64,000 nt of DNA. It comes from Loxodes magnus. Lineage: Eukaryota > Ciliophora > Karyorelictea > Loxodida > Loxodidae. This document shows, one piece after another, positions 8,396 through 63,630 of this stretch. The notes beneath the pieces were generated by a model. That model saw only the letters and a program-made list of their open reading frames with translations. It was not told the DNA's origin and ran no database searches. The position numbers and the translations under genes were made by a program. Within the stretch, counting starts at the first letter, position 1. Each line of letters begins with the position of its first letter. The stretch lies in NCBI GenBank assembly GCA_946699065.1, contig CAMPDV010000864.1, forward strand, positions 1 to 64,000, read 5' to 3'.

Positions 8396-8409
8396 AAATA
8401 AACCCTTCT

Positions 8410-17599: not shown

Positions 17600-20500
17600 C
17601 TTAGTATATTATTATTTTAACAAGCTTATTAAGCTATTTAAAGAGTTATTAATATTAAATAAATCAAATTTTTATTTTCTTTACTAAGCTAAAAATCTAT
17701 TATCTTCTCTTGGAAATTAAAAACTATAGCTGTAGAAACTAAAATCTTGGTGCTGCTAAATTTCTGTTAAGATAGAAAAAGAAAGCTAATTCTTAAAAAA
17801 ATTTCCAAAATGATTATATTTTTAAAAATTATGAAGACCTCTATGATTTAATTAGTTGATTATTAATAGCAGAAACTCAAAAAAATAGAGCTTATACACC
17901 AAACTCTTGCTTATTTAATGAAGCAGAGAAATAAAATCAAAAATAAAATGAAATTTTATTTTAGTAAGTAATGAAAAGTATAGACCATAAGCCTTAATTC
18001 TATTAACTAAAAAGATTTGTAGTTAAAGATAAGAAAGTGACGATAATTTTTGAAACAGAGTAAGGAAGTTTCGTTAAAAAGTAGTGAAGGGAGATAGATA
18101 AAACAAGATAAGTTGAATAACTTAATAACCTTTATTAAGCTTATACTAGCTCCACTTTTTTGACTAATTTTTTTAAATTTAACTGCATATCCAATTTTTC
18201 TGATTACTTGGTAATAGAAATGGCAGATTTGCTGTCTAATTACTCAAAAATTTGCTTATGATGTTACAAAGCTGAATTCTTTAAAATATATTAGCTTTTA
18301 AAATGCTAGCTTACATTTTCTAAAAATAGCTAAGATTTTTTAGCTTCATTTTTTATCTTATGACTAGAAATTTCTTTAATTTGAAGTAGCTTTAGAATCT
18401 TGTTCTTAAGAACACTCTCATTCTTAAAAATTCATTGAAGCTATTATTCCGAAGAATTACTCTTTTTCATTTTATTCAGTGCTTTCCTTTATCTCTTAAT
18501 ATTTTAATTTCTAATAATTGTCAGAAGGTATATTAGATACTATGTAAGAAATTCATAGTTTTAAGTGTGGATAACTCTCTTTCCTTAGAGTGCTTAATTT
18601 TACATTTGCATATGTTTTTTATCATTATTTCAGTATGTTATCTTCTAGGTTTTCAATTAATTCAAGCAAGCCTGAGGAGATTCTTAAAGCCGATCTCTGT
18701 TTTTTATAAATAGATCTAATGAGTTATTTCTTCTTACTCTAGTTATCAAAAGATTTAGCAGGCAGAAATGCAAATAAAATGATAAACAAATTGGTTAATT
18801 TTTATAAAATGCCTACCTATGTCAAACTTCTTTTAACTCTGCTAGATAAAATTAGCCTTCTTAATTTTGCAATGCAAATTACTTAAAATTACTGTTACTA
18901 TAACTTAAATCACATTTCTCCTTTCAAATCCGCTCAAACTTTTTTAATACAATTAAAAAGTTCTGGCAGTGATTTTGTTTTTGCTGATTTAAGTTTAAAA
19001 TCTCATAGACTGACTTAGAACTTCTAAAACTATTCTCATTCAAAATTTACTTAAGATCTGATTTGTCTTATTATCTCTAACTTAGTTATTCTAGCTTAGT
19101 ATTTTAGCTAAGACAAATCTCTTAATGCCTAGAAATATTATGCTTTACATATTTGATTCTCAAATTTTCTTTAATTTATTTGTTATTCACTCTGAAAGCA
19201 AGCCAAAACTACTTAAGGAAGCAAAGCTAGAGATTTAAGAATTAAACTAAAACGATTTCTTTATATGATGATATAAATCTTCTGCTTAAAGGGTTGTTTC
19301 TTTATATATCAAAATTCTACCTCAGATAAATTCCTCTTGCTTCAATAATGATTTGATCCTCATTCACTTAAGACAACTCAGTATCTATATATCCGATTTT
19401 TTATTAAGGACTACTTTATGTAAATATTATTAACCAATAATCTCATAGTAAAGACATGATTCTACTATTTTGAACTAGATAATTAAATGTCTTTGAGTAG
19501 CAAAACCATAAGCATTCTAAAATTAAAAGCAATTTATAGTTCTATAGACAGAAATAACCTTAATAAAGAGTCTAAGTTTACTAAAGATCTAATTGCTTAT
19601 AACTCTTAAATTCAATTAAGAGATTGTAAAAGTAATTGATTAAACTACCTAAATTATAATTGAAAGCTTAATAAGTATTATTATACAAACCTTTCAAGCT
19701 AGTATATTCATAATAAATATGCATTTATCTTAATAAAAGAAGCTATTTCTTTTAATTTGTCTATAAAAAGAGGCTTCTATGTTTATGCTAATGAAATATC
19801 ATTATTTTAAAATTTAAGTTGTATAATTTGGAAGGAAATTAAAACTATAAATTTGGAAAATAAAAGATAAAAGTTTTAGGTGAAAGAAAATATTGTGTTT
19901 AGCCACCTAAAAGCAACAAAATATTATATTAGAGAAAAAGAATAAATCAAAAATAGCTTAATAGACAGCTATAGAAAGATATATTAAAAAGCAACCATTT
20001 AGAATAAAAATATCTATAAGTAATTACTTATTTATAATTGATAGGCATTAATAATAAAGCTATCCTAATTCTTTTAAGAAGATTTAATCTTAATCAAGCA
20101 ATTAAAGTATAATTCAAAGCATTTTAGTTATTTTAAAAGTAAAGGCAAGATAAAAATAGTATACCGCTATTTTTTATTATTATTAATATATACAATTTAA
20201 TAAAAAATCTATTAACTAGTGATTACCTTTAAGATACTAAAGATAAATTAACATAATAAAGTTAAGTGATTGATATTATAAAGATGTTAATTCGTTTTAT
20301 ATAAAAGAAAAACTTATTAGCAAGGAAATTATAAAAATAACTAAAATACATGAATCTATTGCTATTTGTTTGCTAGATCAAGAAAACATTTTAAGCTATT
20401 TAATAAACTTAATGTTAAAGTTAGAAATAAAAAATATGTAAAAAAATATTAAATAAAAGGAGCAATAAGGAAAGAGATCTTAACGCCTTTTGGAATATCT

Positions 20501-22330
20501 CACAAAGTTAGATTAAAGAATCCTAAAACTAGCTTTAGAAACAGATTGAACTGGATAACAGACTCATAAAAGTAGAAGAGAAATTATAAACTTTTAAGAA
20601 AGATTAAAGCGAAACTGGAGCGATACAAATGGAAATCGAAGCCTAGAAAGAGCAAAAAAATCAAGGAAAATAATTCAAAATAAAAAAGAAATGTTTCTGC
20701 TGTGGAAGCGTATGACATTTTTATCGGAAGTGTTAGAAATTTTAATAGAAATAAAGAAACTATTGGATTAAAGAACAAAAAAAGAAGAAAAAAGAAGAAG
20801 CAAGAATGAAAAGAATGTATTGCAACCCGGATAGATCAATATACAAGATTAAGATGGAACCAAGGCAAGTTAAAGGAGGGAAAACCTGGAAAAACCCGAA
20901 TTCCCAATCTTGCTAAAATTGGGCGACCCGAACTCTTTTATTTAACAACAGGGAGTATGAACTGCTGTCTTCCTGACGGGGTTGGAAATCCCTAAAACGG
21001 AAAACTTAAAATTAATATTATTATTATAAAAGGAGCAATACATAAATTTGGTTTAAAACCTGTGAATACATAGGTATTTAATAAGAGCAAAGATAAATGC
21101 ATCAAATAATTTAAGACAAAGTTCTAGTAAGCTATTAATCCTCTGAAAGATAATCTTAACTAGTTAAAGCTAATTTAAAAATATGATTGAAGATTAGCTA
21201 TAATGCAACTCATTAGCACTTGACTTTTTTCATTTGTCTAGGCTTTGCAATAAAAGCAGCTTGCTCTTAGTAGCCATTTAATTGAATGCAAGATATTAAC
21301 AAAGTAATCTAAAATTAATCTATTGATATAGAAGTAGTTTGAGATCAAATTTTAAAGTTATAACGACAATAAAAGTTTGAATGATGTATAAAATAAGGCA
21401 GAAGTTATTTTTTATAAAAGGATTACTAAATAAGCAATGCCTAAACATCTATCTAAAATGTAGATTATATGATAACAGTATTGAAAATACTACGTATAAT
21501 ATAAAGGGGATAAGTGATATCATAGAAGTTTAAAATTAAATTGTTTATTTTTAAAAGTAAAAGAACGAAGTTAAACTAGCCAAAAGTATATGAATTACCC
21601 ACAAATGGAGAATAAGAAATAAAATTTATAAATAAAATGATATTAATAAAAATTATTATTATTGTCTATACGAATCTAAAACTTAAACATTGTGCAAGTT
21701 AATTGTTCTGAAAATTGAACCTCATATTTTAGAAAAGACTTATATAAAAAGGTTTTATAAACCTTTGTGAAGAATCTATACCTTAACAACGAGTTTATAT
21801 TTAAAATTTGTCTTTCATAGTTTATGTTTATATAGGGATTTTTTTACAATTCAAGATCTTTTTCAAACTAAAGTGCTATAGAAGATTACTAAAAATACAG
21901 GGATTAAAAATATGTTTAACACATTTCTAAAACATTAAAAATTTATTATTAGACGCAGATTGACTAAACAAATACTATATACCTTCAAATATTTTAAAGA
22001 TCTTAAAATTTAGTAACTTTATCCATAATTACTAAAATTACTAAGAATTTAAAGTATAGAAAGTTTAAAATATTAATTTTGAAGTATTTCTTGTTTATCA
22101 TTTTTATTAGCTTCCCTCTAACGCTTGCTCATTCTTTCATTATAATTGTAATGTTCTCATTTTTGATATTGTTCAGTATCTTTGTTGAAGTAATCTAAAT
22201 AAAGATATATTTCCTTTAATACTTAATGTTTTATTATGAATATAAATTAGTTAGTGATTTATCTAATAATTTTTGCAATAATTTAATTTATTTAAATAAG
22301 ACTATTAATTTGCTTGATTGTTTTTTAAAT
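17600..22330 (+). CDS. large unrecognised protein gene, split by a retroelement
   Basis: From about 18250 to 20452 and again from 21026 to about 22330, a single frame (codon starts equal to 2 modulo 3) is strongly protein-like. It has roughly one TGA (Trp) per 60-80 codons, against many in the other frames. Samples: EEILKADLCFLQIDLMSY, INKLVNFYKMPTYVKLLLTL, AINPLKDNLNQLKLIQKY. A strongly hydrophobic part near 22060-22200 (YFLFIIFISFPLTLAHSFII) suggests C-terminal membrane segments. An upstream stretch in another frame (about 17600-18230, with VTIIFETEQGSF and FSDYLVIEMADLL) may be an earlier exon or a frameshifted part. The retroelement at 20468-21025 sits between two halves that share the same frame. 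Without it the protein exceeds 1,250 residues. Start, stop and family are unknown. Confidence 0.55.
20468..21025 (+). mobile_element. 5'-truncated ORF1-only retroelement with 15-bp TSD
   Basis: Flanked by identical ATAAAAGGAGCAATA at 20453-20467 and 21026-21040 (the last bases may overlap the tail). The insert is a near-identical relative of the 3' part of the element at 53338-54308. It codes for a coiled-coil end (KQIELDNRLIKVEEKLQTF), a CX2CX4HX4C zinc knuckle (CFCCGSVWHFYRKC, 20692-20733, TGA as Trp) and a basic tail (MKRMYCNPDRSIYKIKM). It ends in a TTATTATTAT tract. An extra base near 20890 shifts the tail frame relative to the 54-kb copy. Target duplication and 5' truncation indicate target-primed reverse transcription. 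The two TSD copies are 573 bp apart, a multiple of three. Confidence 0.88.
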
Positions 22331-30856: not shown

Positions 30857-32280
30857 AGATCTGCATTAATTAACATAATAATTACACTTAAAGTTAAAAT
30901 TTATCAAACTATATATAAATAGAATTTCTTTGCTGCTTTATATTGACTTTAGATATCTTAATTATTTTACATAGCTTAATTGTTATCAACTGGTTGAGAA
31001 GAGTTAAATTCCTTTAATTCCTTATTTTAAACTTTCAATTTTTATTTTCTGTTCCTTTTTTTAAATAAAATTAATTATCTATATTTATATTAACATAACT
31101 GACTTCTTTTTTCTTAAGATACTTGAAATATTTTCTTATCTCTTTAAATATTTTTGATTTAACTAAATTTCTGTTTTTATCTATAATATATAGAATTTTA
31201 GAATTAAAAATCTTAATTTAATCTAATTAAGCATGCACAAATAATTACTATAGACTATCATTAGTCATTGAATATTCTTCTTATTTGGAATCTTAAACAA
31301 ATTTTTATTAAATGAAGTTTATTTAAAATATTTATTTGCCTCCAAGTAAACTATTCTAAGATAATTAGCTTTAGATTAAAATGCATAATATTTATTGATA
31401 AAATCTAAAATAATTTTTAAAGTTGATTTCTAAAATTAAAAAGTACTAGAATTTTATAATTAAGTAATACATAAACTAGGAGAAATACTTTAATCAGCCA
31501 AATTAAAAAATTATTATATATAAATGTGGAAAAAACTTAATTATAAAATTAAATTAACTCTTTTAAAGAAGTTTATATGATAGCAGTTTATAAATTTTAT
31601 ATAAATAGTTCTATAAAGATGCTTAATATAAAAATAATTAAAACTAACTAGATAGTTTAATCTTAAAGAAATATTTTTCTTTTTACAATTTAATTAAGTA
31701 ATTAGTAACTTATTCTTAAATTTTTATTTTCAAAGTCTTTAACTTGTAAAGATTGACTATTTTTTTATAAACGATTGATACAACAAGTTAAAATTAAAAT
31801 AGATTTTTGAGTAGCCTAATTACTTTTATATTTATCAACTTTAAATTCTTATTTAACATATTTTTAGTTTATTTCTACTAACTTTATTGAATCTCTAAAA
31901 TTTTATAAAGATATATATCATTTTATTTAATATTAAATTATTTCTATCAAAGATGCTTTATTAATAGCATTTTTTAATATTTTTGCTTTAATGTTTTTAA
32001 ATTTTTATTTTTATTAAATTTACTTAATTAACACTCAACATTATAATTAATCTTAAAATATTAAGATATTTCTCTACAAATAAGCAATCTAAAAGCTTAA
32101 ACAAGGGAAATATAAATAGATTAAGAATAATAAAAATATGTTAATGATATAAATTAACTAAGATTAGTAAATTAAAGCATATAAATAAATAAAAATATAA
32201 AAATTTAAATTTATAAGCAAAATATATTAAGAATAGTAAAATATTAAGTAATTTAATATTTTATAAAAAAAAGTTAAAAG
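30857..32280. other. AT-rich spacer
   Basis: Very AT-rich on both strands with short homopolymer runs. No domain, structure or codon pattern seen. Confidence 0.6.
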
Positions 32281-32284
32281 TTAA

Positions 32285-33044
32285 AAAGCTTTGTTAAAGC
32301 CTTAGTAGTCAGCCATCTGACCTATTCTATCAGCTTGTCTCTATTAGTTTGTCTTGAATTCCTACTAGGCTTAGTTAGGCGGTGTTGCACTTCATTAGTG
32401 CACCATCCTTTAATATTCTGAATAGTTTTGTCTTGCACTTAGCGTTCCTAATTATTTATCCAAGGATTAAGATTTGAATTAAAGAATTTTTTTCTATAAA
32501 TTTTTCCGCTTTATGTTGGATATATCCTAAATAGTTTTCTAAAAATATCTTATTTATTCTTTCTTTAAATTTCGCTTAGTTAGTAGCAATATTTTCATTG
32601 GTGTTATTTATTGCACACGTAGCATTCTATTCTTCTTTTAAACTATTATTCCTGTAACACTTATTTAATTTAAATTTACTACTTATTTTAAATAAACGTT
32701 TACTGTTTATTTTAATTTGAGGCTTCATTTTCTATTTCCATAGGATCTGATTAATTCTGTTAAAACGAAAATGGCGTTACCTGAATTTATTATTAAATTT
32801 AAAGAATTCTTTGTTCCAGTTTGTTTTCTATTTCTTATGATTATTAATATTGTTTCTCAAGTAAAGACGTTATTAGTTTTTCTAATTTTTCTACTTTATC
32901 ACTGAGGTATCTATTTTTAAACATAAACTCTTTTAATGACTTAGATAATATTTCTATTTGAGTTTGTGTAGGAAGTTTTTTTAGTTCTGGATTTCCAAGT
33001 GGTTAATGTTCGTCATATCAATCATATTTTTCACTTTCACTCAT
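32285..33044 (-). CDS. ORF1-type protein of an ORF1-only retroelement
   Basis: ATG at 33044 (minus) opens one frame of about 250 codons. The N-terminus is acidic (MSESEKYDWYDEHQPLG). A coiled coil follows (FMFKNRYLSDKVEKLEKLI), then a Gln-rich linker with PMEIENE, then a CX2CX3HX4C zinc knuckle starting at residue 141 (CYVCNKQHQWKYC). The C-terminal part has LFRIYPTQSGKIYRKKFF and GWCTNEV. The same order and the same PMEIE, LFRI.PT.(S/T)G..YRKKF and GW.TN.V blocks occur in the protein at 60491-61303, so the two are paralogues. No endonuclease or reverse transcriptase accompanies it. No obvious in-frame TGA stop is seen near 32285, so the 3' end is uncertain. Confidence 0.75.
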
Positions 33045-33329
33045 TGTAATTATTTCGCTTTTTTATTTTTTAGAGAATTTTCCTGTTTAAATGTTTTGTT
33101 CAAAGTTCTGTTATTTCTTAGAAGCCATTTTATATATAATACTATAATAATAGCAATAACTAATTATAGTGATACCATCTTCAATTAAGTTCCTTACTGG
33201 GTAAATGACATATTCAGATTTCTCCAAGTATAGTAACAAATATTTTCGATTCAGCATATTAAATCTTTGAAAAATGATCTAAAGAGTAACAAGCAGTTTA
33301 CAATTAATTAATTATAAATTTTCAAATTT

Positions 33330-37299: not shown

Positions 37300-38161
37300 T
37301 TTATAGGTTACAATAAAATTGATCTATTTGAAGTTTATGTTCTTCAGTTTTCTTCACTTTCTTTTCCTTCGCTATCTGTTTCTCTTTATAGTAAGGCATT
37401 TTATTCCTGATTCTGAATGCATTAACCTGATTTTTACTTCCTTAGCACTTTTAATTGCTTCCTTTATAGCTTTTTTTTCTTAAGCATCAATTTGAGCTGA
37501 GCCCTTTTTGGTTACAGTTCTTACATTTTCAAATTGATGGTTGGCGATAAAACGATACGTTTATGGGATTTCCAGATTGACTCAAGTAAGTGCTTATATC
37601 TCATTCGTCTAACTTATCTGGTATATTTTCTGCATCTTTGATCTCCTTCAATTCTAAATGGGTTTTCATTTTCCCATTGGCTCATGTTGTACCTTTTACG
37701 GTTCTGATCTCTGTATATACTATTTTTCCGTATTGCTATAGATGGGTATCTACCTGGCTAAAACTTGAATACATGTTAAATGTTCAGTGAATCGGGTAGT
37801 TCTTAATGCTGTAGAATTCCTCTTTATTTCTTTGCTCTGCTGGTATTAAAAAATTTCTACACTTCCATGTTTAACTATTTACGAATTGTGTGAGTGTTTT
37901 CTAATTTTTGAATCACATAATAATTATTCCTGTCTGAAAGATTTTCACACTCTAAATATTTTTACCATATTCTTAATTCAAACATCTGAGAAATGCTTGA
38001 ATGATTTCATTTCCTTGCATTTCTGCTGGACTGAGTCTTTGACTATAGTAATTTTCTTATAAAAATTTATTGAAATAGGTAACTCCTACCCTTTTAGCAG
38101 TTTTGAGCTGCATATTCTCCTCCTCATTTTATGGTATTTGCTCACTCTTTTCTTCTTCCAT
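37300..38161 (-). mobile_element. LINE ORF1, RRM plus zinc-knuckle type
   Basis: ATG at 38161 (minus) starts a frame that stays open past the knuckle. Residues about 125-195 form an RRM/gag-like domain (NYPIHWTFNMYSSFSQVDTH, then GKIVYTEIRTVKG and ANGKMKTHLELKEI). An IPDKLDEWDISTYLS segment and INVSFYRQPSIWKCKNC follow. The knuckle (C213) is CX2CX4LX4C, with Leu replacing the usual His. This RRM-then-knuckle layout is known in I-clade/Jockey-like LINE ORF1 proteins. TGA is read as Trp at least five times. After the knuckle another frame looks better (DAQEKKAIKEAIKSAKEVKI), so a frameshift is likely near 37480. No endonuclease or RT follows; the frame instead runs toward the WD40 pseudogene. 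Confidence 0.7.
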
Positions 38162-46300: not shown

Positions 46301-48068
46301 AGAGAACTATACATGCGAGAAAATGATGGAAGAAAATGAAGAAACATCACTAGAAATTTTTAATATAACAGATCAGTAAAGAAAAATAATAAATCAAATC
46401 TCATAAATAAAAAATGGAGCCATAATTGGAATTGGTACAGTTTCTACTGCTAGTTTGATTATAGCATAAGGAAATTCTCTAGGATACTGATTTTAACTTA
46501 TGATAATGACTGAAATATTTTAAGCAAACGCTTATATTCAAGTTAACAAGCCAGCAATTTTATTGGCTTTCTATTTTGAGCAAAACTAAAATATCATCAA
46601 AAATTGACAGAAATATTTAGATTTCAACAATAGTAAATAAGCAATTAAAGATGAAGAATGAAGAGTCTTAGGATATACCAGCTACGGCTTTCTAGAAAAT
46701 TCATGGTTATATTAACTATTTATTCTTTCCATTTTATTCCTAGATATATCACTGAGTCAGATATAAAAGTTTGCTTGTACTAAGATTCTTTCTAACATAA
46801 GACTTAAATATTTACATTACCGACTTCCGTTAACTTTTTATTTACTAAGCAACCTTCAGATATCTTATTCATCTCTTCTTCAAATTGTGTATTCAAACTT
46901 TGATGATGGATTGTGCACATTGAATACACTTGCCGCTATCTTTTGATTGGTAATTTTTTACTTTATATAGGTGTTGCAATTTTATTTGATAATTAGGTTT
47001 CTCTTTATCATAAAGAGATTTTTTGACTTAAAAAAATAGGTGAAACCAAAAGTTCAATACAAAGAGGAAAATAAGGAAGAATACATTCAAAAGTATTTTT
47101 CTTTATTCGACGAGTTAAAGTAAGAGAAGAAAGCCTTACTATTCTACCCCTTGTTCTTACTTAGAAGATTACTATTTTCCATTATCTTGATAAGCTTCAA
47201 AGAATCACCTTTACCTCAGATCATTTTGTGCAATGCCTTAAGTTTTTTGATGCTTATATATATCCTAAAAAGTAAGCCTTTTGAATCTAAATTGCTTAAT
47301 ATAGTCCAAGTTTTGCATGAGATATAATTAATCACTTTACTGTCCTTTAATTTCTATTTCTATTAGCTTGATTAAGACTAAACTCTAAGAAATCTAGCTT
47401 CAGTGGAATCCTAAACATCACAGAAGTTAGGTTTAAGTATTATAGTGATATCGAGTATAATAACGTTTGCTGGTATACTTTTTGGAGTTATAGTTTTGAT
47501 TAGAGACATAGTGAAGGAAATAAGTCAAAAGAAGAACTAAAGCATTTCATCAAATAAGATTTCATAGTGGAGCACTATAGTTTTCGAAACTACAATGTGA
47601 AAACCATAAAACTTGAGAAAAAATAAAGATATATATTAGGCAAGAATGTAAGATTCGGATCACTCTGATCGTATTTTTGACTTGAAGAGATAGAATTCTT
47701 ACCAGGAAACTAGTTCTAGATATTTTAGAAGCAAGAAAAGGAATAAAAAATAACTAAAGATTGATATAGACAATAGCATGGTAATTTATTTAAGTATATA
47801 GGAGTGTGACAATAGATAAAGCAGCTAAATAAAGATAGAAGAAAATAGATATTCAAGAGATGAAACTTAGTTTTCTTTAGAAATCTTACGAGAGAAGATA
47901 CAAAATAAGAAATTTAATTTTGAGAGCAAGAAGTAAATACTCTAAGGAAACTAGACTGATTAATAAGATAAAAGCCAGTAGTCTGGAAAAAAATCGTAGG
48001 AAAATGCAAAAACAAAGAGAAACAAAAAATTCATCTTTCCAAATGAGAAGCACAATAATTAAAAATGA
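43364..48068 (+). CDS. cysteine-rich repeat, multi-pass membrane protein (receptor-like)
   Basis: Exons 43364-44444 and 44482-48068 give 1,555 residues. A signal peptide (MQVTLIILACLLQVKSQ) and a unique extracellular domain of about 200 residues lead into hundreds of residues of spaced CxxC/CxC units, of the growth-factor-receptor/furin-like type common in ciliates. Then come about eight or nine hydrophobic helices (from about 46410, e.g. AAIFWLVIFYFIQVLQFYLI and LSIIVISSIITFAGILFGV). A basic cytoplasmic tail follows, rich in Ser, Gln and Lys. Exon 1 uses TGA for Trp about a dozen times and TGG not at all in my reading. The last 150 or so codons lack TGA until the stop at 48066-48068. Two 85-residue units (44811-45320) are almost identical. 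Likely a surface receptor or adhesion protein; ligand and signalling route unknown. The frame is intact. Confidence 0.85.
44445..44481 (+). other. 37-nt GT-AG intron in the cysteine-rich gene
   Basis: Exon 1 and exon 2 are in different frames. Removing GTTACC...TTTCGTAG (37 nt) joins them exactly within a Ser codon (T|CT), followed by CSDKSTCTKC, which matches later repeats. The alternative donor 10 nt upstream would not restore the frame. Intron status is inferred from the frame only. Confidence 0.6.
44811..45320 (+). repeat. 255-bp tandem duplication (2 units) within the gene
   Basis: Units start at 44811 and 45066, each beginning TGTCCTATTACAGA; a third, diverged unit starts at 45321. The first two differ by only a few bases, so the duplication is recent. 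255 bp is 85 codons, keeping the frame and the cysteine spacing. Confidence 0.92.
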
Positions 48069-52094: not shown

Positions 52095-53022
52095 TTTATA
52101 ATAATAGGATAAATTAAGTTTAGCAATTTTCGAGGATTTTCACCTCTTCATGCTGGACACCAGATTACTGTTAAAAATAAAGTTTTAGATGTCTCTACTC
52201 CTCTCTCCTCCCATTACTCTTGTCATTTCCGGATCTAGCCTTATTTCTAATTAAATTTTCTCTTGTAAATGTATCCTTATTCATTTAAGTATAATCTTTC
52301 TCTTATTTGTCTCTACTACATTTTTTTTTCTTCCTCTACTGTGCTTGTATGGTTCTTTATTTATTCCAGTACTACGACTTGAAATTTTGGAATTCCTTGC
52401 AGCGTCTTCATAAATGTTCTGTCAAATTGCAGTAGTAACATTTCTTCACTACTTTTTGGAGTTTAACCTTAGTCTTCCTATTGGTCTCTTCAATCATCAT
52501 TGGATCTCCCCTTTTTTCATCTAATTTCTTTTCTAGTATTTCCAGTCTAATACTCAGATCAGATTGTTTCTGAAGCTAATTTCAGATTAGTTACTCTAGT
52601 CTTAAGATATGTTTCAGAAAGCGCTTAGTTCTCTTTCTTAAGACATAAGTCTGGATTCTATTCCTTCCGCTAGGTTGAGTTTTTCCATTAGTTTCTCATT
52701 GTCCTTTCTCAGTTTCTTAACCTCTTCCTTGAGGTTTAGTACCACTTTGATGAGCTATTCCATGCTCATCTGGCCAGAAGGATTGAACTTTGAGACCTCC
52801 TGGTGCAGAGCAGACTTCATCTGCTTTCTGGGCTTCTCTTCTGAGGTTGGAGTTATATCATGTGTTGTCTTCTGAGCTTGTTTCTGTTCCTCTTCAGGTT
52901 GTTAGAATTAAGAAAAAGGTTAGGGTTAAGGGTAAGAAGACTATCCAAGATTGGATTCAGGTTTCCTCTCCAACTTTTTGGAGGTGGTGTAGAAACCTCT
53001 TTTGAATCCTTACATTTTTTTG
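52095..53022 (-). mobile_element. ORF1-only retroelement, copy A
   Basis: Minus-strand relative of the element at 53338-54308, full length by comparison: both begin with an A-run followed at once by ATG. The ORF reads MQGFKRGFYTTSK, a Pro/Gln linker PQPQPFSQFQQP with Gln as TAA, then MKSALHQEVSKFNPSGQM and a coiled coil EEVKKLRKDNEKLMEKL. After a frame change near 52630 come SDLSIRLEILEKKL and a CX2CX4HX4C knuckle (CYYCNLTEHLWRRC, TGA as Trp). It ends in an ATTATTAT tract near 52100. No target duplication was found. The frame change makes this copy broken. It lies head to head with copy B. Confidence 0.82.
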
Positions 53023-53337
53023 TTTTTTTATGAAAAATAGTGTAAAAGACTTGCTTTATATGACTAAAACTAGATTAATAAATAGTTTACAAAAGATAAG
53101 ATAATTAAATTAGATAAGTACATAAAAATATTTCATCAATAATATTTAGAAGATCATTAAAGATTTTTAAGAACTAAAGTGAAGAGATAATAGATTATAT
53201 TAAGAACCCATGAACAGATTTAATGAACAAAAAATTCTTTATCAAGATGAGAGTGAAAGAGAACCACGAATGAAATATAGAAATTTTTAAATTTAGCTTA
53301 ATTTGCTGGATAAATGCCAATAATGATACAATTATGT

Positions 53338-54308
53338 ATAAAAAAATGGTTGAAGGTTTCAGATCAGGCTTCTATATCACCTCTTCCTAAGCCAAAAAGG
53401 AAGGGAAGAAGCAAGAAACCAAATCTTAATAATCTTAACAATCTTCTCTATCTCAACCTTAACCAACACTGAACTAACAACTTGGAATCTAACAAAACGA
53501 ACGAAAGCCAACCTTGAAGAATATACACACGGAAACTCCAACCTCAAGCGAGAAATCGAGGAGACAGATGAAGTCTGTTCTTCACCAGGAGGTATCAGAG
53601 TTCAACCCTTCTGGCCAGATGAGCATGGAGTAGCTCATCAAAGTGATACTGAACCTCCAGGAAGAGGTCAAGTGATTGAAGAAGGACAATGATATGCTGA
53701 TGGCAAAACTAGACCTAGCGGAAGGAATAGAATCCAGATTTATGTCCTAAGAAAGAATTAAGCGCTTTCTGAAACATATCTTAAGACCAGAGTAGCTAAT
53801 CCTAAAATTAGCTTTAGAAACAGACTGAACTGGATAGCAGACTCGGAAAAGTATAAGAGAAATTGTAAACTTTTAAGAAAGAGTAAAGCGAAACTGGAGC
53901 TATACAAATGGAAATCGAAGCCTAGAAAGAGCAAACAAATCAAGGAAAATAATTCAAAACAAAAAAGAAATGTTTCTGCTGTGGAAGCGTATGACATTTT
54001 TATCGGAAGTGTTAGAAATTCTAATAGAAATAAAGAAACTATTGGATACAAGAGCAACAAAAGAAGAAAAAAGAAGAAGCAAGAATGAAAAGAATGTATT
54101 GCAACCCGGATGGTTCAATATACAAGATTAAGATGGAACCAAAGCAAGTTAAAGGAGGGAAAACCTGGAAAATCCGAGTTTCCAATCTCGCTAAAATTGG
54201 GCGACCCGAACTTTTATATTTAACAGCAGGGAGCATGAACTGCTATATTCCTGAAGGGGTTGAAAATCCCTAAAACAGAAAACTTAAAATTAATATTATT
54301 ATTATTTT
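53338..54308 (+). mobile_element. ORF1-only retroelement, copy B, with 12-bp TSD
   Basis: Bounded by ATACAATTATGT at 53326-53337 and 54309-54320. The 971-bp body starts with an A-run and ATG (53346). The ORF has an N-terminal block (MVEGFRSGFYITSSQAKKEG), a Gln-rich linker, MKSVLHQEVSEFNPSGQM, and a coiled coil (NLQEEVKWLKKDNDMLMAKL). After a frame change near 53760 come QTELDSRLGKVQEKLQTFKK, a zinc knuckle CFCCGSVWHFYRKC (about 53960) and a basic C-terminus (MKRMYCNPDGSIYKIKM). It ends IPEGVENP near 54273 and then a TTA-type tail. There is no EN or RT. Coiled coil plus knuckle is a LINE ORF1/gag-like RNA-binding layout. The target duplication shows it was inserted by retrotransposition machinery supplied in trans. 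Confidence 0.88.
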
Positions 54309-54371
54309 ATACAATTATGTCTCAATATTCAAAATATTTAAACTCTTATAGTTTATTATTAAGACTTATTA

Positions 54372-54388
54372 TTTAAGTTTTTAAATAA
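54372..54388. repeat. left 17-bp target-site duplication of the LINE
   Basis: TTTAAGTTTTTAAATAA, identical to 60434-60450. Confidence 0.9.
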
Positions 54389-54423
54389 ATTTAAATTTAA
54401 ATTTAAACTAAAAGAGTTTTTTG

Positions 54424-54465
54424 ACGTCTTTAATTGCAAGAATTGCTTCTTTCAATTATAGACGT
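54424..54465 (-). other. 3' stem-loop of the LINE
   Basis: ACGTCTATAATTG pairs with CAATTAAAGACGT (one mismatch). Inside it AAGAA/TTCTT closes a GCAA tetraloop of the GNRA class. It lies about 35 bases from the 3' end of the element RNA. Comparable 3' hairpins are template-recognition signals for stringent LINE reverse transcriptases. The SINE at 30.5 kb has its own hairpin at the equivalent place. Confidence 0.75.
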
Positions 54466-54506
54466 TAGTAAATGTTTTTAAATTGTTTTTTAATCTTGCT
54501 TACATT

Positions 54507-57500
54507 TCATCATTTTTCTTCAATTAGTTCTTCTTTCTATTCATCTTTAGCTTCTTCCTTTTTTGCTTTCTCCATTTCTAGAATCTCAAGTCTCCTTGTC
54601 ATTAGCTTCTTATGAAATATTTTGATCTATAAGTCTAAATACTCCAATTTAGACCTTGAAAATGAATTTAGATATTCTTGATCGTATAGTATAAGGCGCC
54701 TTAAGTCATAATTTCCGATCTTTTCCGATAATCAATTAATTATATTAGAATAGTACACACATTTAAAGATATGCTCGAAAGTTTCATACTCTCCACACAT
54801 ACAAAAGGGATTATCAATGGGGTAATGACGATCTTAAAGATCCTTACGGAAATTATAAGTTTAGGTTCTAAGTTTATATATACTGATAATTTCTCGTCTA
54901 TACTATTTGTTTAATTTAGTATAAGTAATTTGTGGAAATTGTTAAAGATTACCAAATTATTCAGTATATACTTTAGCTGTTTTCATCCTCATAAATTTTT
55001 TAGTAGCTACTTTGTAGAAATATTGTTGTATTTTTTCTCTTACATGTTTAGTAAAAGTTTTAAGATTGGTATTATTCTATTAATTCTGCAGATCGATATT
55101 ATAAAGGTCTGATAATTGCTACACTTAATCGTAGTATTGAAATCCTTTTTTCCATATATTAATGAAAAGAGAGCCTATTGTTGATCTTGGAAAATCAGTA
55201 CTTTCTTATTTAATTTTATGGTAGAATCTGAAGAATTTTATAGCCATAATGTGCTTAAAGGGTAATCAATTCAGGTCTATATAACATGATTCATTAAATG
55301 TTGAAGTTGCTACTTAAAAAGCTTTTCTTGAAATTAATCTCATGCTTGATTCTATTCTGTTCAAAACTCCAGTTACTCCTTTTTGAATACTTCATGGTAC
55401 TAAGTCTCCTCCATATTCTGCTTTAGGTAATGTAAAAAGTCTACATAAAGTTTTAAAATGTCAAGGAGTTACATTCTTATATCTCATCAGTTAAAAAACA
55501 GCTTTCTTCATTGCAGCTATATATTTAAATGCAGCTTCTTTGCAATGGGGATTTAAGTTCTTCTTCTAATGTAGAATAACTCCTAAATATGTTACTTGTT
55601 CTTTTTAAGCAATTGGTTAATTTCCTAATTATAAATTTAAAATTTATTATTTCTGATTCTTCTTTAGAAATTAGATGCATTCAGATTTGGTAATATTAAT
55701 CTTTAAATGTGTTCATGCAAAAACTTTATTTGCTTCATTTATTAAATTCTACATCTACTTTGCAGATTTGGAAAGAAGAATAAGATCATCTGCCCATCCT
55801 CTACAAGCGAAGCTAATACTTGAATCCTGGCATTTAAATCCCAATTAGTTATTTTTACTTTCCAGATATCTAATTACTATGTCATAATACAATAATGCTA
55901 AAACTGGTCCATGAGAACTTCCTTACATAACTCCATTGTTGAATTATAAAGTTCTGGTACTCTTACCATCTATGATAAATGAAGAATTTAGGTTTTTATA
56001 AAACGATTCTAAGGCTATTATTATTCCAAGTGGTAGTTTAACTCTCTTAAGTTAATCAAACAAGAGTCTTCTTTCTATTGAGTCAAACATTTTTTCAACG
56101 TCTATCAGTGTTGCTATCAATTTAGTCTTACCTTTAGCACATTTCCGATAGTTATCAATTATTTGTTATATTATTCAAATTTATTAAGTTGTTTATCTGT
56201 TTTTCATAAATCCCATTTATGAAGGGTGAATCAAATTTCTCTAATAAATAAGATTGTATAGTCTTTTTGCTAAAGCTTTATCATATAGTTTTAGAATAGT
56301 ATTAATAAGAGAAATAGGTCGTCAGTTTTTCCAATCATCTTTATTTCCTTTTTTAAATATTGGAATTATCACCGATATATTTAATTCCTAAGGGATTCTT
56401 CCAAGTCTTAGCATATTATTCAGAAAAGAATGAAGAATTATTAATAAATATTATCCACCATATTTCAGAAGTTCGCCTTTTATTCCATCTGGACCAGCTG
56501 CTTTTCCATTCGGAATTTCTTTTATAATTTCTTATATTTCTTTTATGGTAAAAAGATCAAATCCTTACAAATACGAGAGTGGATAATCTTTAATTTCTTA
56601 AATATTATCGTATATTTTATCTATTTTTTAATTACTAAGATTTATCTATTCTTGAGTTAGATTAGAATGCTTGTTAAAAACACAATTTTCCCATGATTCA
56701 ATGAATTTATTTTTGATTTCTTAATTAAAGTTCATAGTATTTCTCTTCAAAGGATTTAGAATTTTCTTAGCTTGCGAAAAAATTTCCTTAGAATCTCCAT
56801 TAAGAAGTAGAAATTTCTTTTTTGCTTTGTTTTTTTTAAATTTTCATAGATTATACTTGAAGTCTTTCCAAAGTCGTTTTGCTTCCTCATGAAGATTAGT
56901 TACTTGCTAGTTTATTCTTCCAAATTTTACGTGAGCTTCCTTATATTCTGAGTTAGCTCTTTTTGCCTCTATATATTTCTTTGTGAGAGCTCGAGGAAGT
57001 TTGTTATAATTTGAATCTGGAATAAACGAACCTAATGTTTGATCAGCATTGTCTTAAATATTACTTTTGATGCATTCATATTAATCTTCAAGATTATCTT
57101 AATCTATTTAAAAGAATTCTAGATAAGTTTGTAGGAAAGATTCTTAATATTTTTACCTATCTATTGCATCTTATAACCTATTTATTTTATATTTTCTCTG
57201 AGCTATCTTTTCCCAATATACTATAGAATTATTGATAAAGTCGACAGTGATTGGAATATGATCAGAAAATAAACTATTATTATGAGCAGTGAAATTTGCA
57301 AACTAATTAACGTTCAAATGGTTGTTTATAATGATATAATCATTACAATACGTTTTTCCTGTTCCTTTATGAATACATGTATTAATGTTGCTATCATTCA
57401 CTATCTCAAGATCGTTTTATAGTAAGAATTCTTATAGTCTAATGTTATTATCATAAGCATTTTCAGGATTATCACCGAAGCCTTATAAAAGAGCATTGAA

Positions 57501-57899
57501 ATCTCCCATTAGTATATGTGGATTATCATTATATAAATTCAGCAATGTATTTAGTTGTTCATAAGCTAAATCTTTAACATCTTAACTTTTTCCATTATCA
57601 GGCATGTAACAAGACGTGATTAAAATATTATCCAGTTTAATTGTTATGAATCTATTTATTTCTTTTTCAACTTATATATGTATTTCTGTACTATTAAATT
57701 CTTCTCCTACAATTAAGCATACACCTCCTCCTTTTCCTGAGTTCTTAAAATATGTTTTAAATCCATTTATCAATATTGGAGGAAAGTCATCTTTTTATCA
57801 GGTTTCGTTTATTGATAAAATATCTATACTGTTATCTCTGATAAATTCTTCAATATTCAAGCACTTGCTCGCTATTCCATTAATATTTATATGTCCCAT
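54507..57899 (-). CDS. LINE ORF2: endonuclease, reverse transcriptase, CCHC
   Basis: From ATG 57899 to tandem TGA TGA (54512-54507), 1,129 residues in one frame. EN (about 1-235): INGIASKCLNIEEF, SINETW (Trp34 is TGA, 57798-57800), GGGVCLIV, ILMGDFNA, YCNDYIIIN, SDHIPI. Linker about 235-450. RT (about 455-760): GKAAGPDGIKGELLKYGG (from 465), VIIPIFKKGN, NWRPISL (Trp526 is TGA, 56322-56324), QMGFMKNRQTT, LIDVEKMFDSIERR, GVMQGSSHGPVLALLYYD, and the catalytic GWADDLIL (W702). The C-terminal CX1CX7HX4C-type motif is FCMCGEYETFEHIFKC (C1033). The C-terminal tail is a charged helix. The upstream region is in the same frame, so ORF2 may be made from a polyprotein or by reinitiation. Confidence 0.92.
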
Positions 57900-58205
57900 C
57901 TTTATTTTTTAAATTTATTAGTCCTTTCTAATTTTTTCCGAGCCTGCAGATAGACCACTTTCGTAAATGCAAATGCTTTTCTATCCTTATTGGTTAATCT
58001 AAATATGTACTAATCTTTTTCCATACTCAGGATGTTAATGAAAATATTGTATCAAAATATATATTACTTACGTCGTATATTTTTTAAGTAGCTTTCTATC
58101 TATATCAATTTTACTTTTCACACTATCACATGTACCTTATTCTAAATCTTAAGTAACTGTGACATATCTACCTTATATATTGTACATTTCGTACTATGGA
58201 CGTCT

Positions 58206-60424
58206 TCAAGTTTCGGATTTAATAAACTTTTAAAGTTATAGACTAGTCAGATTGAAATAACATATTATTTAATCGCACTCTTTTTTATTATTATGTTTAC
58301 TCATACGTTTTGCTGGCGGAATTGTTTTATCTTCTTCTTCATGTTTCCTTTTAAGAATATTAAGATTAATATTGGAAGATAAGGTTTAATTCTGATAAAT
58401 AGCATCGATCGAATCTGTTTAGTTTTATTAATCTTTTTTTCATCTTTTAGTAGAATAATTAAATATATCTTTTTTCAAATTTTAATTAAGTTTTTAAAAC
58501 TCTTCTATTTTTATCTCAAGTGTCTACATATTTTGGGTACTTTAAATGAATTTTAAGTTGAGTTAGTGATATTAATGCTATAGTAAAACAAAATCTTCAT
58601 CTGGCAATTTTATTTGACAGTATTAGTTATTATGTTATGTTATAATAGTATTAGTTTATGCTTCCTATTAATTATTTTAAGTTTACATTAACTTGTCTTG
58701 CTTGATTATATTTGTTTGAGTAAATTTTTGACACAAAATAGCTGTTTATTATTTATTTATATTATCTGTTTAGATAATACTATCCTTTGTTTAAATATTT
58801 CCATATAATGTCTAAGTTTATGCATCTACAAATTACTTCTTCTAGAATTACTATTAATTACTAAATTCTTTTGTATGTTAGATTTAATTCTAAAATAATT
58901 CTTTATACATTTGAATTTCCTTATTTTTTAATAGAATTTAATTTTGAAAAGCTATATTTATTTCATAGTTTTATTATATTTACTTATCTAATTCGATTTT
59001 GAAAGTTAAAATTTCCATTTAAGCTTTCTATTCTTAATCTATAAATTACTTATTTTAGTTTTATAATTTTTAATATTAAGAATATAACTCTTGGAGTTAA
59101 ATTTCGGTTATTATTTTTTATTAGGTAATTTGTTGAAGTAAATATTAGTTCTATTCTAATATAGTCTATTGATATCCTAGCTAAGTTTTATTTAGAAAGT
59201 TATCTATTTCAATTTAAGTAAAATTTATAATTTATTAAAGTTTTGACATAGTGAATTATTTGCTCCTATCATTTAAGCTTAAGTAAAGCTTTAATTAGCA
59301 TTGGCTTCAATTTGAATCTCTTAATTAGATAATATTTCATCTATTGAATTGACTTAATTCTCATAGTTTTTCTATTATATCTAAATTTCTTGAACTATAC
59401 TAATTATTTCATCTGTTTAAACTATTTAGTTACTGTAATAAGTGGAGAAGTTTGTTTAAGTAATTTTATGAACTAGTTATTTTGATAGCATTTTTTTGTG
59501 ATATTTCTATATATCAGATTTGATTGACTAAAAATAGTTCTATAATAGTTTATATTTCTAATAAATTTTATTTATATAAGTTTTATAATATATTTTGGAT
59601 ATTTCTTAGTTACTTATCAATGTTTCAATATCTCGTTCATATTTTGCTTTTATATTAATTAGCATTTCATTTAATTATTGGTTCTTATCTATAAGTCTTT
59701 ATATATTATGCTTAAGTTCTTTTATTTCTAAGGTAAATAAATCCTCATTAGACTAATTAATTATTTGATTTTATATTACATTTCTTAAATCAGCAGTTTA
59801 ATTTTAAGGTTGTTTGCTCTGAAGATCAGGTAAATATTGATTATTTGAATTATCAGGATTAGTAATATTATTTTATTTCTGATTAATTTCGTTATTTGAA
59901 ATTTAATAGAATTGTTAATTAGTATTATTCAAAAATGAATCTTAAGTTTATGTTATTTTTGACTACCATAAAAGGATATCTTTATTTGAATTTTAATTAG
60001 GATTTGAAGGTATATCTTTTGAATTCTAACTATCTAAGATAATATCTTATTTTTGGAAAGATTTCTTAGTTAATCGTTTCGTATCTTTCGCGGTATTATT
60101 TTAGGCGGTTAATCTGTTCATCTATTTATAGGTTGATTTCGCTTTCATAATACGCTACAATTAATATCCACGTTGAAGAGAGTTCCTAAGTAGTTTTAAT
60201 GGGACGTGTATGAATTTGTTTTCCGGTTTTTGACTACAATTTTTAAGTAGTTGTCTTAATAAATTCATTATTAGGTTTACTTATTTAATTTGTAGTTACT
60301 CCAAATCTTTCGTTTGGAGATTTTAATGCACCTGCCTATGCTTTTCCTATGAATTTGCAGCTTCTTTGAAATTAATTAAAGAAGAGTCACTATTAAAAAC
60401 TAGTGAATTCTATATTTCGTCCAT
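58206..60424 (-). CDS. LINE ORF1: coiled-coil protein, in frame with ORF2
   Basis: Starts at ATG 60424, about 10 bases from the element's 5' end. It reads MDEIQNSLVFNSDSSLINF, then a second possible start MKAKSTYKQMN (60148). A Gln/Asn-rich region and long coiled coils follow (LEIKELKHNIQRLIDKNQQL; IQLQELYSQYQKLQNQNKQF). The C-terminus is basic and NLS-like (LKRKHEEEDKTIPPAKRM). A change of frame near 59230 is explained by a 44-nt GT-AG segment (59204-59247). Removing it gives 724 residues to the TGA at 58208-58206. If that TGA is Trp, the frame runs on through about 100 more codons into ORF2 and forms one 1,956-residue polyprotein. RNA binding and chaperone roles are typical of LINE ORF1 proteins; no RRM or knuckle was seen here. 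Confidence 0.75.
59204..59247 (-). other. candidate 44-nt intron in LINE ORF1
   Basis: Minus strand GTCAAAAC...TTGAAATAG. Its removal joins CTA T|AT AAC TTT and restores the coiled-coil frame on both sides. An intron in a LINE is unusual, because spliced RNA would be the expected template; a compensating frameshift or indel is the alternative. Confidence 0.4.
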
Positions 60425-60433
60425 TTTTTTTTT

Positions 60434-60490: not shown

Positions 60491-61303
60491 ATGGCACCTA
60501 AGAAATAATAGACCTCTATTAACGAATACTTGAAAAAATAAGAATAACCTAATTTAATTGAAGAATAGCCTTAATAAGATAAAGATTAATAATCTAAGGA
60601 ATCCTTTGCATAATCAGTTCAGCAAAGGATATCAAATATCCAATATGACTTGAAAAAGTAAAGATAAAAAATAGAAAATTTAGAAAACTTACTAGAAAAA
60701 TTAATGGAATAATTAAACCTATAATTCCCATCCATAGATAAATCATTAAATAAAATCTAATCGTAAATAGTAATTAAATTGGAATAAATTGATAAATAAT
60801 TTAACGAAGTCCCTCAAATGTTCCAATTTCATTTTTCTTAAATTGAATATCAAATAAAGCAACTTTAAGAAAAACAAGAATAATAACAAGTAATAATTTA
60901 AAAATTATAATATTAATAAGATTAATAATCAAATATCCCAATGGAAATCGAATCGGAATTCTAATAATAAGAAATAAATAAGATCAATTATTATCGCAAA
61001 AAGATTCGGTGCTATTTATGCTAGAAAAATCATTGCCGGAAGAAATGCTGGAAGAAACAAGAAATTGAAAAAATTAACAAGTAATAAATATTAGACTAAC
61101 TTTTCAGAATATGACCAACAAGAACAGGATAAGTATACAGAAAGAAATTCTACAACTCAAGAAACAACGAGTTTTATATAAATGGAAGAAGAAACTATAA
61201 CGATAATTAGTGGATGAGCGAGAGACAAGGATGGCGGACTAATGTAGTCCTACGCAGTCCTTTAGTTCAGGAAAGAGCAGGAACAAAAACAAGTGAACCC
61301 TGA
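60491..61303 (+). CDS. intact ORF1-type protein (coiled coil, zinc knuckle)
   Basis: ATG 60491 to TGA 61301-61303, 270 residues, one frame. The N-terminus MAPKKQQTSINEYLKKQ contains a PIP-box-like QTSINEYL. A Gln-rich segment leads to coiled coils (YDLKKQRQKIENLENLLEKL; FSQIEYQIKQLQEKQEQQQ), then IPMEIESE, a CX2CX3HX4C knuckle from residue 174 (CYLCQKNHCRKKC), LFRIWPTRTGQVYRKKFY and GWRTNVV. It is a clear paralogue of the protein at 32285-33044 and a distant relative of copies A and B. No EN or RT is attached. The LINE inserted just upstream, with start codons only 66 bases apart and divergent. It is either an active ORF1-only element or a domesticated gene; no target duplication was found. 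Most Gln codons are TAA/TAG. Confidence 0.82.
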
Positions 61304-63630
61304 AACTCTTTTCTAAAACTATAAACTTAATTTTATCCTTTTTTTTTCATCTATTTTTAGTTATTTTTAAACTAAATAACTTAAAATAAAATAAATCTCA
61401 TTTACTAAAGCTAAAATTAATAGAATAGCTTCTATAATTTATTCCTTTAAACTATTATTAAATTACAATACTTTAAAACCTTAAACTTTGCTAGATAAGA
61501 AAGGAAATAACCTATTAAGGATATAATAGATTAGATATAAGGATTAATTTTTAATTTATTGCCAAATAAATTTAATTCGAAAAGATAATTGCCAATCTCA
61601 TTAGTATCCACAGTACAAGAAATATTCCATTATAAGTCTGCCTTAAGTTACTATATTAGCTTCGAGTAAGTTTCATTAAAGCATAAAGTAAACATAGCTA
61701 CAGACCTCAAGAAAATCATATTAAGAATCTCTCTTAGAGCACATAATCATACTCCTACAGACTTTTTATTTTATACTTAAGCACTTTTTTTAATTTTCTT
61801 TGTAATTGAATATTCTTTTTAATAATCTAAGTTATAATGAAACTTAGAACTATTGAAATCCCTAATACTTTTAACTAAATAATTTTAGAATGCTATTACA
61901 AATGTTAAATGATATAGGAATTAAAAATATAAATAGTATTTAGTTTATAAAAGGATATAATAATTAAAATTAATGCTAAATAGATTATAATAAGTAACTG
62001 TATGATATAATAATAATACTTGTAGTTATTATTAGTAAACCATATAATTATACTCAATCTATCATACTTTTCATTTATTTTCAATTACCATTCATCTTAC
62101 ATAAGTTGAACCAATATAATAATAAGCCAGGCTTAAATTAAGGCATCAAGAATAACTTTTTGGGACTAGATAATTAGTTCTAAATAGGAAATTATCAAAA
62201 CAATGTATACTAAAGTCTATAAAATTAATTTAACACTTTATAAAGTAAGCTATTAACATTAGAGTTTATAATATCTTAGGTAAAATAATTATAAAAAAGA
62301 GAAATAATAGTATTCTCATATATTCACTTAATTATCCTAATAATAAACCATGTAATATAATATTTTACTTAAAAACCATATAGTTAAAATAGATACCTTA
62401 AGAGGATTAAGATTTATCAAATAATAAATAATTATAATTTAACTTTAAGATATTCAAGCATAGTTAAATCAACAATCAGTCCTTTAATTAAAATAATTTA
62501 TTCACTTGATAAATCTTTCAGCTACTTAGCGAATTATCTTAGTTATAATAACCCTTCTTAAATTTTTAAGGCTTTTTCATCCTTATGATCTCTAAATAAG
62601 AAACTTCAGTAGAACATTCATTTTTCTCTTTATTTTTAAATTATAGAAACAATTTTTCCTTTCTAACTTGATATAAAATTAAAACTTAATTATTGCCTTT
62701 AATTTTCAATTGTTTTTTCCGGATATTTCAAAGATTTCAAATAAAACACTTAATTGGTTTAAGTTTTTCGATTTTCAATTATCTAGATAACCGTTTCAAA
62801 GCATTCTAAATTTTTACTTGTTTTGAAGTAATTTATAAACAAACTCCTTCTTTATGAGTTTTTTATTCTTATTTTTTATACATAAATGAGAATCAATGTA
62901 TGATACTTTACTATGCTAAGAGAATTATATAAATGACATATTATTAATTTATGAGCATTTGAAACATTTTTCTAACTTCGATACTATTATTAAGTTTCAT
63001 ATCTAAAGCTTAGCAAGATTATTTATTTACTATAACTTATCAGTAATTGTTAATTTTTCAAATTAAGCGTTTATTTTGATGTTAAAATATGTTTAATTTT
63101 GATTTAATTTAATCTTAAATAAAAGTATGGTATCACTTTATTAATTTATTGATCATATTTAAGTTTACCAAATGTTTATTCTTATGCTCATAATAGCTAT
63201 TTTTCCTATAGTAAATAATAATTTTATTAGGAAAAGTTTAATGTTTTATCTATTAATATTCTATTATCTAGAATATCTTTGCTATGTTTAAATTACTTAC
63301 TCTAAATTTATAATTTTTATTACAGCTATAGTTTAGCATACATGTTTATTAGGATGAATAAAAGAGTTAACTTTAGAACATTTCCTAATTTTGATATCTT
63401 ATTAATCTTAATAAATATCAAAGATAGATAGTATAATTTTATTTTTTCTAACATTCATTTGTTTCAATATTTGGAAAAATATAGATAAAAAATCAATTTT
63501 TAATAGTTATATTTATGACTTTAAATAGAAATTTTATTAGTAAAATGTTTTTATACTAAAATAATTTAAGTAGCAATGGATTTAAATATTAAAGTTTTAG
63601 CCTTTATATTTATTAATTTATAACCTTACA
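61304..63630. other. AT-rich spacer
   Basis: No domain, repeat or structured RNA recognised over 2.3 kb. Confidence 0.55.

Follow-up and report, generated by a model that had tools for sequence, protein, structure and literature searches.

Half-LINEs of Loxodes magnus: ORF1-only non-LTR retroelements probably moved in trans by LINE enzymes

Retroelements that code for an ORF1 or Gag protein and leave the enzymes to others are of a kind already known, ciliates included, since HeT-A, HAL1 and the solo ORF1 elements of Paramecium precede those described here. HeT-A is a Gag-coding non-LTR element without reverse transcriptase (RT), dependent on RT made elsewhere. In mammals, HAL1 elements are described as non-autonomous, coding for the ORF1 protein only and having several origins (PMC5753468, PMC4859970). 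In Paramecium tetraurelia, seven 'solo ORF1' elements, A-G, have been described (PMC5405496). For Loxodes magnus, the published account gives the macronuclear assembly as 706 Mbp, says that retroelements are retained in the working nucleus rather than excised, and describes two or more complete LINE families, most repeats being left unclassified (PMC11441545). We found no report of half-LINEs in Loxodes among the open-licence papers searched.

The window, i.e. the whole stretch of 64,000 nucleotides analysed here, comprises bases 1-64000 of a 164-kb contig; the assembly totals 705,730,643 bases (705.7 Mb). An earlier note on this DNA had marked five copies encoding a coiled coil plus a zinc knuckle without endonuclease (EN) or RT. 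These copies are real. A profile of the half-LINE protein, A1, built from six sequences, all of this genome, recovers copies A (20299-21009, + strand), B (32266-33116, -), C (52111-52973, -), D (53403-54287, +) and E (60491-61333, +), and matches no other place in the window. All five encode a coiled coil and a CCHC knuckle, and Pfam scans found EN and RT in none of them. They had also been taken for a single family, an idea that did not survive comparison of DNA identity: four families were found, A and D together, C, B and E. Copies A and D are 93.5% identical over 509 bp, and C is a relative of D (83.8% identity, 333 bp). At the DNA level, copies B and E match none of the other copies in the window, and their proteins are alike (33% over 254 codons). 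A DNA search of a plasmid collection gave no matches. Elsewhere in the window, positions 1-6000 hold an AT-rich 36/37-bp tandem repeat with a strong G-over-C bias on the + strand, and a long Cys-rich ORF (44620-46323, +) contains a 255-bp internal duplication, 96% identical; no Pfam match was found for this ORF in the two frames scanned.

Copy D (53340..54308, +) is a full-length ORF1-only element, its ends having been counted genome-wide. It consists of an A-run with ATG at 53346, a leader, a coiled coil, a QMEIE box, the knuckle CFCCGSVWHFYRKC, a 3' hairpin and a (TTA)n tail, and is flanked by an exact 12-bp target duplication, ATACAATTATGT, at 53326..53337 and 54309-54320. Copy A (20468..21027, +), placed by its identity to D and its reading frame, is a 5'-truncated member of the D family with the same knuckle and a (TTA)n tail; its 15-bp duplication, ATAAAAGGAGCAATA, at 20453-20467 and 21026-21040, is also exact. 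Both duplications, and the TTA-type tails of the same two copies, had been seen before and are confirmed here; the start on an A-run and ATG once ascribed to copy A is not, as this copy, truncated at its 5' end, lacks an ATG.

Copy C (52095..53023, -) belongs to a family related to D and is ORF1-only and frameshifted, with the leader MQGFKRGFYTTS and the knuckle CYYCNLTEHLWRRC; all 40 of its genome matches scored are 94-100% identical. When an alignment of 14 D-family sequences is set against the C sequence, copy D is seen to contain a tract (53765..53800, +, ends approximate) that resembles family C, unlike other D copies, and that shifts the frame of window D. The tract agrees with database matches starting at query base 35. 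Copy C itself lies inverted less than 1 kb from it, so that gene conversion suggests itself as the source of the tract.

Copy B (32263..33128, -) is ORF1-only, with the box SDPMEIE, the knuckle CYVCNKQHQWKYC and IYPTQSGKIYRKKF. Its ORF had been recognised before, and only the start needs moving: it lies at 33128 (MASKKQQ...), 84 bp upstream of the one claimed. The 3' end is T-rich with no clear target duplication, and the genome matches scored are 98-100% identical over 766 bp (40/40). Immediately 3' of another B copy, a tRNA-Ser (GCT) gene was observed (L045 289-371, -). Copy E (60491..61341, +, 3' end uncertain) is again ORF1-only, with MAPKKQQ, IPMEIE, the knuckle CYLCQKNHCRKKC and WPTRTGQVYRKKF; its 40 of 40 scored matches at 98-100% arose in part through duplication of a larger block. 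Candidate numbers at first look, which are not copy counts, were 3048 for D, 4965 for C, 2355 for B and 2080 for E.

About ten families are present in the genome, those of the window (A/D, B, C and E) being joined by F, G, H, I, J, K and M. Family F adjoins a B copy (L043/L047), and the decayed family G stands behind a LINE (L036/L046). Families H, I, K and M occur in L024, L009, L032 and L027, respectively, and J, together with a relative, in L019; J and K look closely related. Family F appears to be young, all 40 scored matches being 98-100% identical (at least 710 of 718 bases).

The proteins have a common layout: an N-terminal leader, a long coiled coil, a [P/Q]M-x-IE box, a CCHC knuckle and a basic C-terminal block, G-x-[IV]-Y-[KR]-x-K (GxIYxxK-type). 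Identity to the C protein is 21-53% in the other families that were aligned, the remainder being compared by eye. The knuckle spacing is CX2CX4HX4C in A/D, C and F and CX2CX3HX4C in B and E. Across the six aligned sequences, the residues Q140, M173, I175, E176, C193, C196, H201, R241, G248, Y251 and K254 (C-copy numbering) are invariant. Compared with solved structures, one stretch of A1 matches GCN4 coiled coils (best E 0.0023) and another the knuckles of retroviral nucleocapsids (best E 0.0018), and Pfam zf-CCHC gives 0.0011 in F, just under the cut-off, and 0.031 in C. With its coiled coil and CCHC knuckle the protein is of the ORF1 type, the matches being modest (best E 0.0011-0.0023). An AlphaFold model has one helix, 85-168, at low confidence (mean pLDDT 60.9, pTM 0.23), and a fold search with this low-confidence model returned nothing at E <= 0.001.

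In a genome-wide search for RT domains, all 150 RVT_1 matches listed contain in-frame TGA, 3-9 each. The RT domains of this genome read through TAA, TAG and TGA alike, UAA/UAG standing for Gln and UGA often for Trp. Such readthrough is what the karyorelict code predicts. After this result TGA was translated as Trp and code 6 was dropped. With UAA/UAG as sense codons and UGA common within RT domains, an 'open frame' is little informative here, and open frames under code 6 were discarded as proof of selection. The selection formerly inferred from two open frames fails on dN/dS as well, which within the D family is equal across the three frames (0.61/0.62/0.59; 13 sequences, window D being excluded owing to its C-like tract). 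Copies of the D family thus appear to decay neutrally, as dead-on-arrival copies should. Between C and D, an ungapped 331-bp block has 15/16/36 differences at codon positions 1/2/3 (chi-square 12.6, 2 d.f., p about 0.002), and dN/dS is 0.21 over 288 codons, with dS near saturation. Since C and D differ mostly at third positions, with a dN/dS of 0.21, the protein probably mattered while the two lineages were active. The value for B versus E is 0.46, likewise near saturation.

The ends of the elements could be counted throughout the genome. With at most two mismatches, the D 3' end is found at 749 places, the D 5' end at 645 and the C 5' end at 496, the reversed-pattern control giving 0 in each case. 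Ends of D on the same contig and strand and within 10 kb were paired among the 100 places listed per end; 10 of the 11 pairs span 919-967 bp and one 1269 bp. EN plus RT could not fit in any of these 11 listed pairs because the spans are only 919-1269 bp. The D family is a discrete element of ~0.97 kb, and the 5' ends of half-LINEs sit on the ORF start. Outside the window, 12 of 19 sampled D loci have different flanks; two of these are 5'-truncated, and the end points of the ten full-length copies agree to within a few nt. Truncated members of the family are copy A, L020 and L025. No EN or RT was found downstream of D at any of the 12 D-family loci outside the block described below (roughly 4.5 kb per locus); at L023, one of the 12, a weak RT match lies 2.7 kb upstream of D. 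ORF2 downstream in most copies, which the earlier note named as the finding that would count against it, is not what is seen for D.

Exact target duplications of 12-18 bp surround 16 of 20 copies from families D (8/11), C (3/4) and H, I, J, K and M (together 5/5, with 3' limits set by eye after reading the flanks). As a control, 380 mismatched flank pairs were compared, and none has a match of 12 bp, the longest being 11 bp. Seven of the ten full-length D loci with different flanks have duplications of their own, and so do all three C copies sampled outside the block (13-15 bp). Duplications are missing at 3 of 11 D copies and at window copy C, and none was convincing for B (6 copies tested) or E (3 copies tested). 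A (TTA)n tail is present in families D, C, F, I, J, K and M; family H has a target duplication and no (TTA)n tail. On these data D and C are whole elements, and copies B and E, at 33 and 60 kb and without convincing duplications, may be regarded as candidates for retrotransposition.

Some neighbouring elements were considered as template jumps. At L016 (3615-5458, -) D and then B stand head-to-tail, with a ~14-16 bp repeat 5' of D and 3' of B (by eye). This pair could be a template jump in one insertion or a nested insertion; the former is not claimed, as part of the repeat could also stem from insertion of B into D's own duplication. Template jumps at L029 and L036 were dropped: because ~40-90 nt (by eye) intervene between the LINE end and the next element, these neighbours look like separate insertions.

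A block with C and D recurs at 7 of the 19 D loci sampled outside the window (L009-L014, L024). E is also present in six of the seven recurrences, where the sequence passes directly from window 54387 to 60428, into E. In the window, a LINE with EN and RT (54389..60433, -; Pfam RVT_1 9.3e-30, Exo_endo_phos_2 2.9e-10) lies between D and E; it is flanked by a 17-bp target duplication, TTTAAGTTTTTAAATAA, and missing from 6 of the 7 other block copies. This LINE is a later insertion, belonging to neither D nor E, and because it was inserted later it is uninformative on both. Next to E, window 61350-62650 is a high-copy repeat (40/40 scored matches at 94-100%). Because E adjoins this repeat, part of the E copies spread with the block. 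In the repeat, 17 of 40 scored matches start at query base 9, and these 17 may be without E.

LINEs are abundant in the genome, PF00078 being matched in 150 of 150 candidates scored. Copies of LINE1 (L029, L031, L033, L034 and L035, with L031 and L034 near-duplicates, flanks included) have an ORF with the knuckle ICCLCKVKGHTDQQC, EN, RT and a GC-rich 3' hairpin, in this order. LINE2, represented by one copy (L030), has an ORF1 29% identical to that of LINE1 and a different 3' hairpin. Both LINEs have their own knuckle ORF1. In profile-profile comparison with ORF1p of LINE1 and LINE2, the half-LINE protein aligns at the knuckle alone, with a probability of 1.8%, and it appears to differ from the ORF1p of these two LINE families, the two compared. 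The search for a LINE with matching ORF1, proposed in the earlier note, found none: none of the LINE loci sampled has a half-LINE-type protein in sense orientation 5' of EN, and at L032 one lies antisense, upstream of a 5'-truncated LINE1.

LINE pieces were also seen in other arrangements. At 7802-10152 of the window a LINE2-related copy has RT on the + strand (7802-8396) and EN/ORF1 on the - strand (10152-8413), which looks like the 5' inversion typical of twin priming. A LINE2-type ORF1 fragment at 37300-38116 (-), with no EN/RT match downstream and beside WD40-like repeats, is possibly another kind of ORF1-only copy. In contigs C5131 and C20, RT domains stand in tandem every 2532 bp (for example, C5131:12904-26349), apparently a LINE piece turned tandem array.

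The ends of half-LINEs were compared with those of the LINEs. Over its first ~107 nt, F shares 83% identity with LINE1 (89/107; z 41.6 versus 300 shuffles), and a 51-nt match to LINE1 (z 13.8) is found at the 5' end of C. The 5' end of D is not above shuffles against LINE1 as DNA, although its leader peptide is similar-looking. At the other end, F matches LINE2 (L030) over its final ~45 nt, the score being 46 where 200 shuffles reach at most 27 (z 11.5), and in the hairpin common to F and LINE2 two stem pairs are altered on both sides (C-G to A-U, G-C to A-U). LINE2 has no 5' leader in its 6.8 kb examined. Since its ends match LINE1 (5') and LINE2 (3'), family F is a mosaic of LINE1 head, own Gag and LINE2 tail. 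The ends come from one F copy, which has a T-run indel in the leader, the other 39 matches spanning its 3' part at 98-99%. Comparison of 3' tails, also proposed earlier, succeeded for F with LINE2; for D, C, B and E, comparison with four LINE 3' ends gave nothing better than shuffles.

A second 3' hairpin is found in families D, C, H, J, K and M, which end in GG-loop-CC with a loop near TTGAAAGT. Both pairs outside GG/CC are formed in all six families (12/12), and these outer pairs covary, one being G-C, A-U or U-A (3 types) and the other G-U, G-C, U-A or C-G (4 types). Alignment with MAFFT misplaced a gap, hence the pairs were counted by a motif, which was written after seeing the six families and excludes the outer pairs. 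The motif occurs at 30 sites in the sampled sequence. Both outer pairs are formed at 25, some of which are one place twice or copies of one block, and 25 of these 25 are half-LINE 3' ends. The five sites without both outer pairs are two altered D copies (L026, L027), two antisense sites inside D and one elsewhere; copies no longer fitting the motif, for example L011, L014 and L042, were left out. In folding energy the hairpins do not stand out: the D 3' end is not stabler than shuffles (z -0.93, 37/200 as good), and z is -1.75 for C and -1.84 for LINE2. The D/C 3' end has no counterpart among the four LINE 3' ends compared, and its hairpin was not seen in two more that were inspected, L048 and L049, the 3' ends of further RT loci (by eye; motif unmatched). 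As the GG-loop-CC hairpin is in none of the LINEs examined, the partner LINE of D/C is probably one outside our sample.

Half-LINEs are very probably non-autonomous, protein-coding non-LTR retroelements of about 0.85-1.0 kb, moved by LINE EN-RT in trans. At the level of sequence, this reading draws on their discrete ends, duplications and tails, on the absence of EN and RT, on the protein constraint between C and D, and on F sharing both ends with LINEs. Duplications, a fixed 3' end with a tail and the lack of EN/RT are consistent with a non-autonomous non-LTR element mobilised by TPRT, B and E being without a convincing duplication. What the earlier note said of ORF1-only non-LTR elements holds good (D ends 919-967 bp apart, 16 of 20 duplications); what it said of one family with selection evident from open frames does not. 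Transcription of a half-LINE would start near the A-run, directly on the start codon, and its product, a Gag/ORF1-like protein, would coat its own RNA. That RNA would end in a short hairpin, plus (TTA)n in D, C, F, I, J, K and M. LINE enzymes would recognise the 3' hairpin, and LINE EN-RT would copy the RNA in trans at nicked target sites.

Several other explanations have to be weighed. Ordinary truncated LINEs, with ORF2 lost copy by copy after the 5' ORF1 part, might be suspected in a genome where LINEs are abundant (PF00078 in 150/150 scored candidates) and where the first ~51 nt of C and ~107 nt of F match the LINE1 5' end. This is highly improbable, given that 10 of the 11 listed pairs of D ends span 919-967 bp, that target duplications flank both ends, that 12 of 12 D loci outside the block are without downstream EN/RT, and that LINE ORF1p aligns with the half-LINE protein at the knuckle only. 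The truncated-LINE reading is refuted for D, by coupled ends plus duplications, and for the three C copies sampled. Discrete paired ends and target duplications therefore argue for ORF1-only non-LTR elements moved in trans rather than truncated LINEs. The window copies might instead have spread through duplication of larger blocks. This is true of part of the copies, as C and D stand together at 7 of 19 sampled D loci, with E in six of those, and E adjoins the high-copy repeat at 61350-62650 (40/40 scored matches at 94-100%); yet at 12 of 19 D loci the flanks differ, and of the ten full-length loci among these, seven have their own duplications, which makes it quite unlikely as the general explanation.

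The remaining two alternatives concern the protein. If half-LINEs were SINE-like parasites, only the RNA ends would matter and the ORF would be an inert passenger. The D family is without frame-specific constraint, the ends of F are LINE-like, and ends alone would be enough for capture by a LINE enzyme. This alternative is nevertheless unlikely, as the protein layout is kept in about ten families (21-53% identity to C where aligned) and C and D differ mostly at third positions. Conversely, the protein could serve LINEs or the host in trans as a shared Gag, the elements being kept for it; a shared Gag in trans has been proposed for the telomeric elements of flies. Both LINE1 and LINE2 have their own knuckle ORF1, however, and the neutral decay within families gives no sign of single copies being kept, so that this is very unlikely despite the many families, the protein-level constraint between C and D, and the 5' leader common to LINE1, C and F.

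Within the preferred reading, that of elements moved in trans, it is tentatively possible that half-LINEs form a modular, diversifying Gag lineage, in which a private RNA-binding protein in about ten families has been swapping LINE ends and partner enzymes, the hairpin of D, C, H, J, K and M reflecting one further unsampled partner. Gag-only elements let one ask what use the ORF1 protein has once the enzyme is supplied from outside, a question difficult to isolate in LINEs. Moreover, the LINE1 5' end and LINE2 3' end of family F pose a testable question, namely which LINE enzyme accepts which RNA end.

Among known systems, SINEs carrying the 3' end of a partner LINE show the usual sign of capture by that enzyme. 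Family F resembles them in its terminal 3' hairpin, common to F and LINE2, and a 3' end shared with an autonomous LINE was found in F with LINE2 only. Unlike SINEs, whose heads usually come from a tRNA, 5S or 7SL gene, half-LINEs are protein-coding and have an A-run and ATG at the 5' end, the head of F being shared with a LINE. A SINE would have a Pol III promoter-derived head and no protein, whereas these elements code for one and their 5' ends sit on the ORF start. HeT-A of Drosophila is described as about 6 kb long with a long 3' UTR and as maintaining telomeres, whereas the Loxodes elements are under 1 kb and inserted with target duplications at dispersed sites, not without duplication at chromosome ends. 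The 3' end of HAL1 is poly(A), where half-LINEs have a 3' hairpin plus (TTA)n. ORF1 homologous to that of the partner LINE, as in HAL1, was not found against LINE1 or LINE2; an unsampled partner could still fit. HAL1 is described as derived from L1 and encoding ORF1p (PMC5753468, PMC4859970), whereas the Loxodes protein is unlike the ORF1p of the LINEs compared. The Paramecium solo ORF1 elements are alike in being ciliate non-LTR derivatives with only ORF1 and a zinc finger at its end; short-repeat 3' ends are described for 3 of 7, and the elements are said to be likely mobilised in trans (PMC5405496). Their zinc finger is described as like that of ORF1 in LINE groups 1-3, whereas in Loxodes only the knuckle aligns with the LINEs compared, and the 3' repeats are (TAAA)n in Paramecium versus (TTA)n in Loxodes, the two systems being compared by description only (PMC5405496). 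The novelty in Loxodes lies in a protein that does not resemble its counterpart in the LINEs compared, in how many families one genome contains, in the covariation within the 3' hairpin, and in F as a mosaic of two LINEs.
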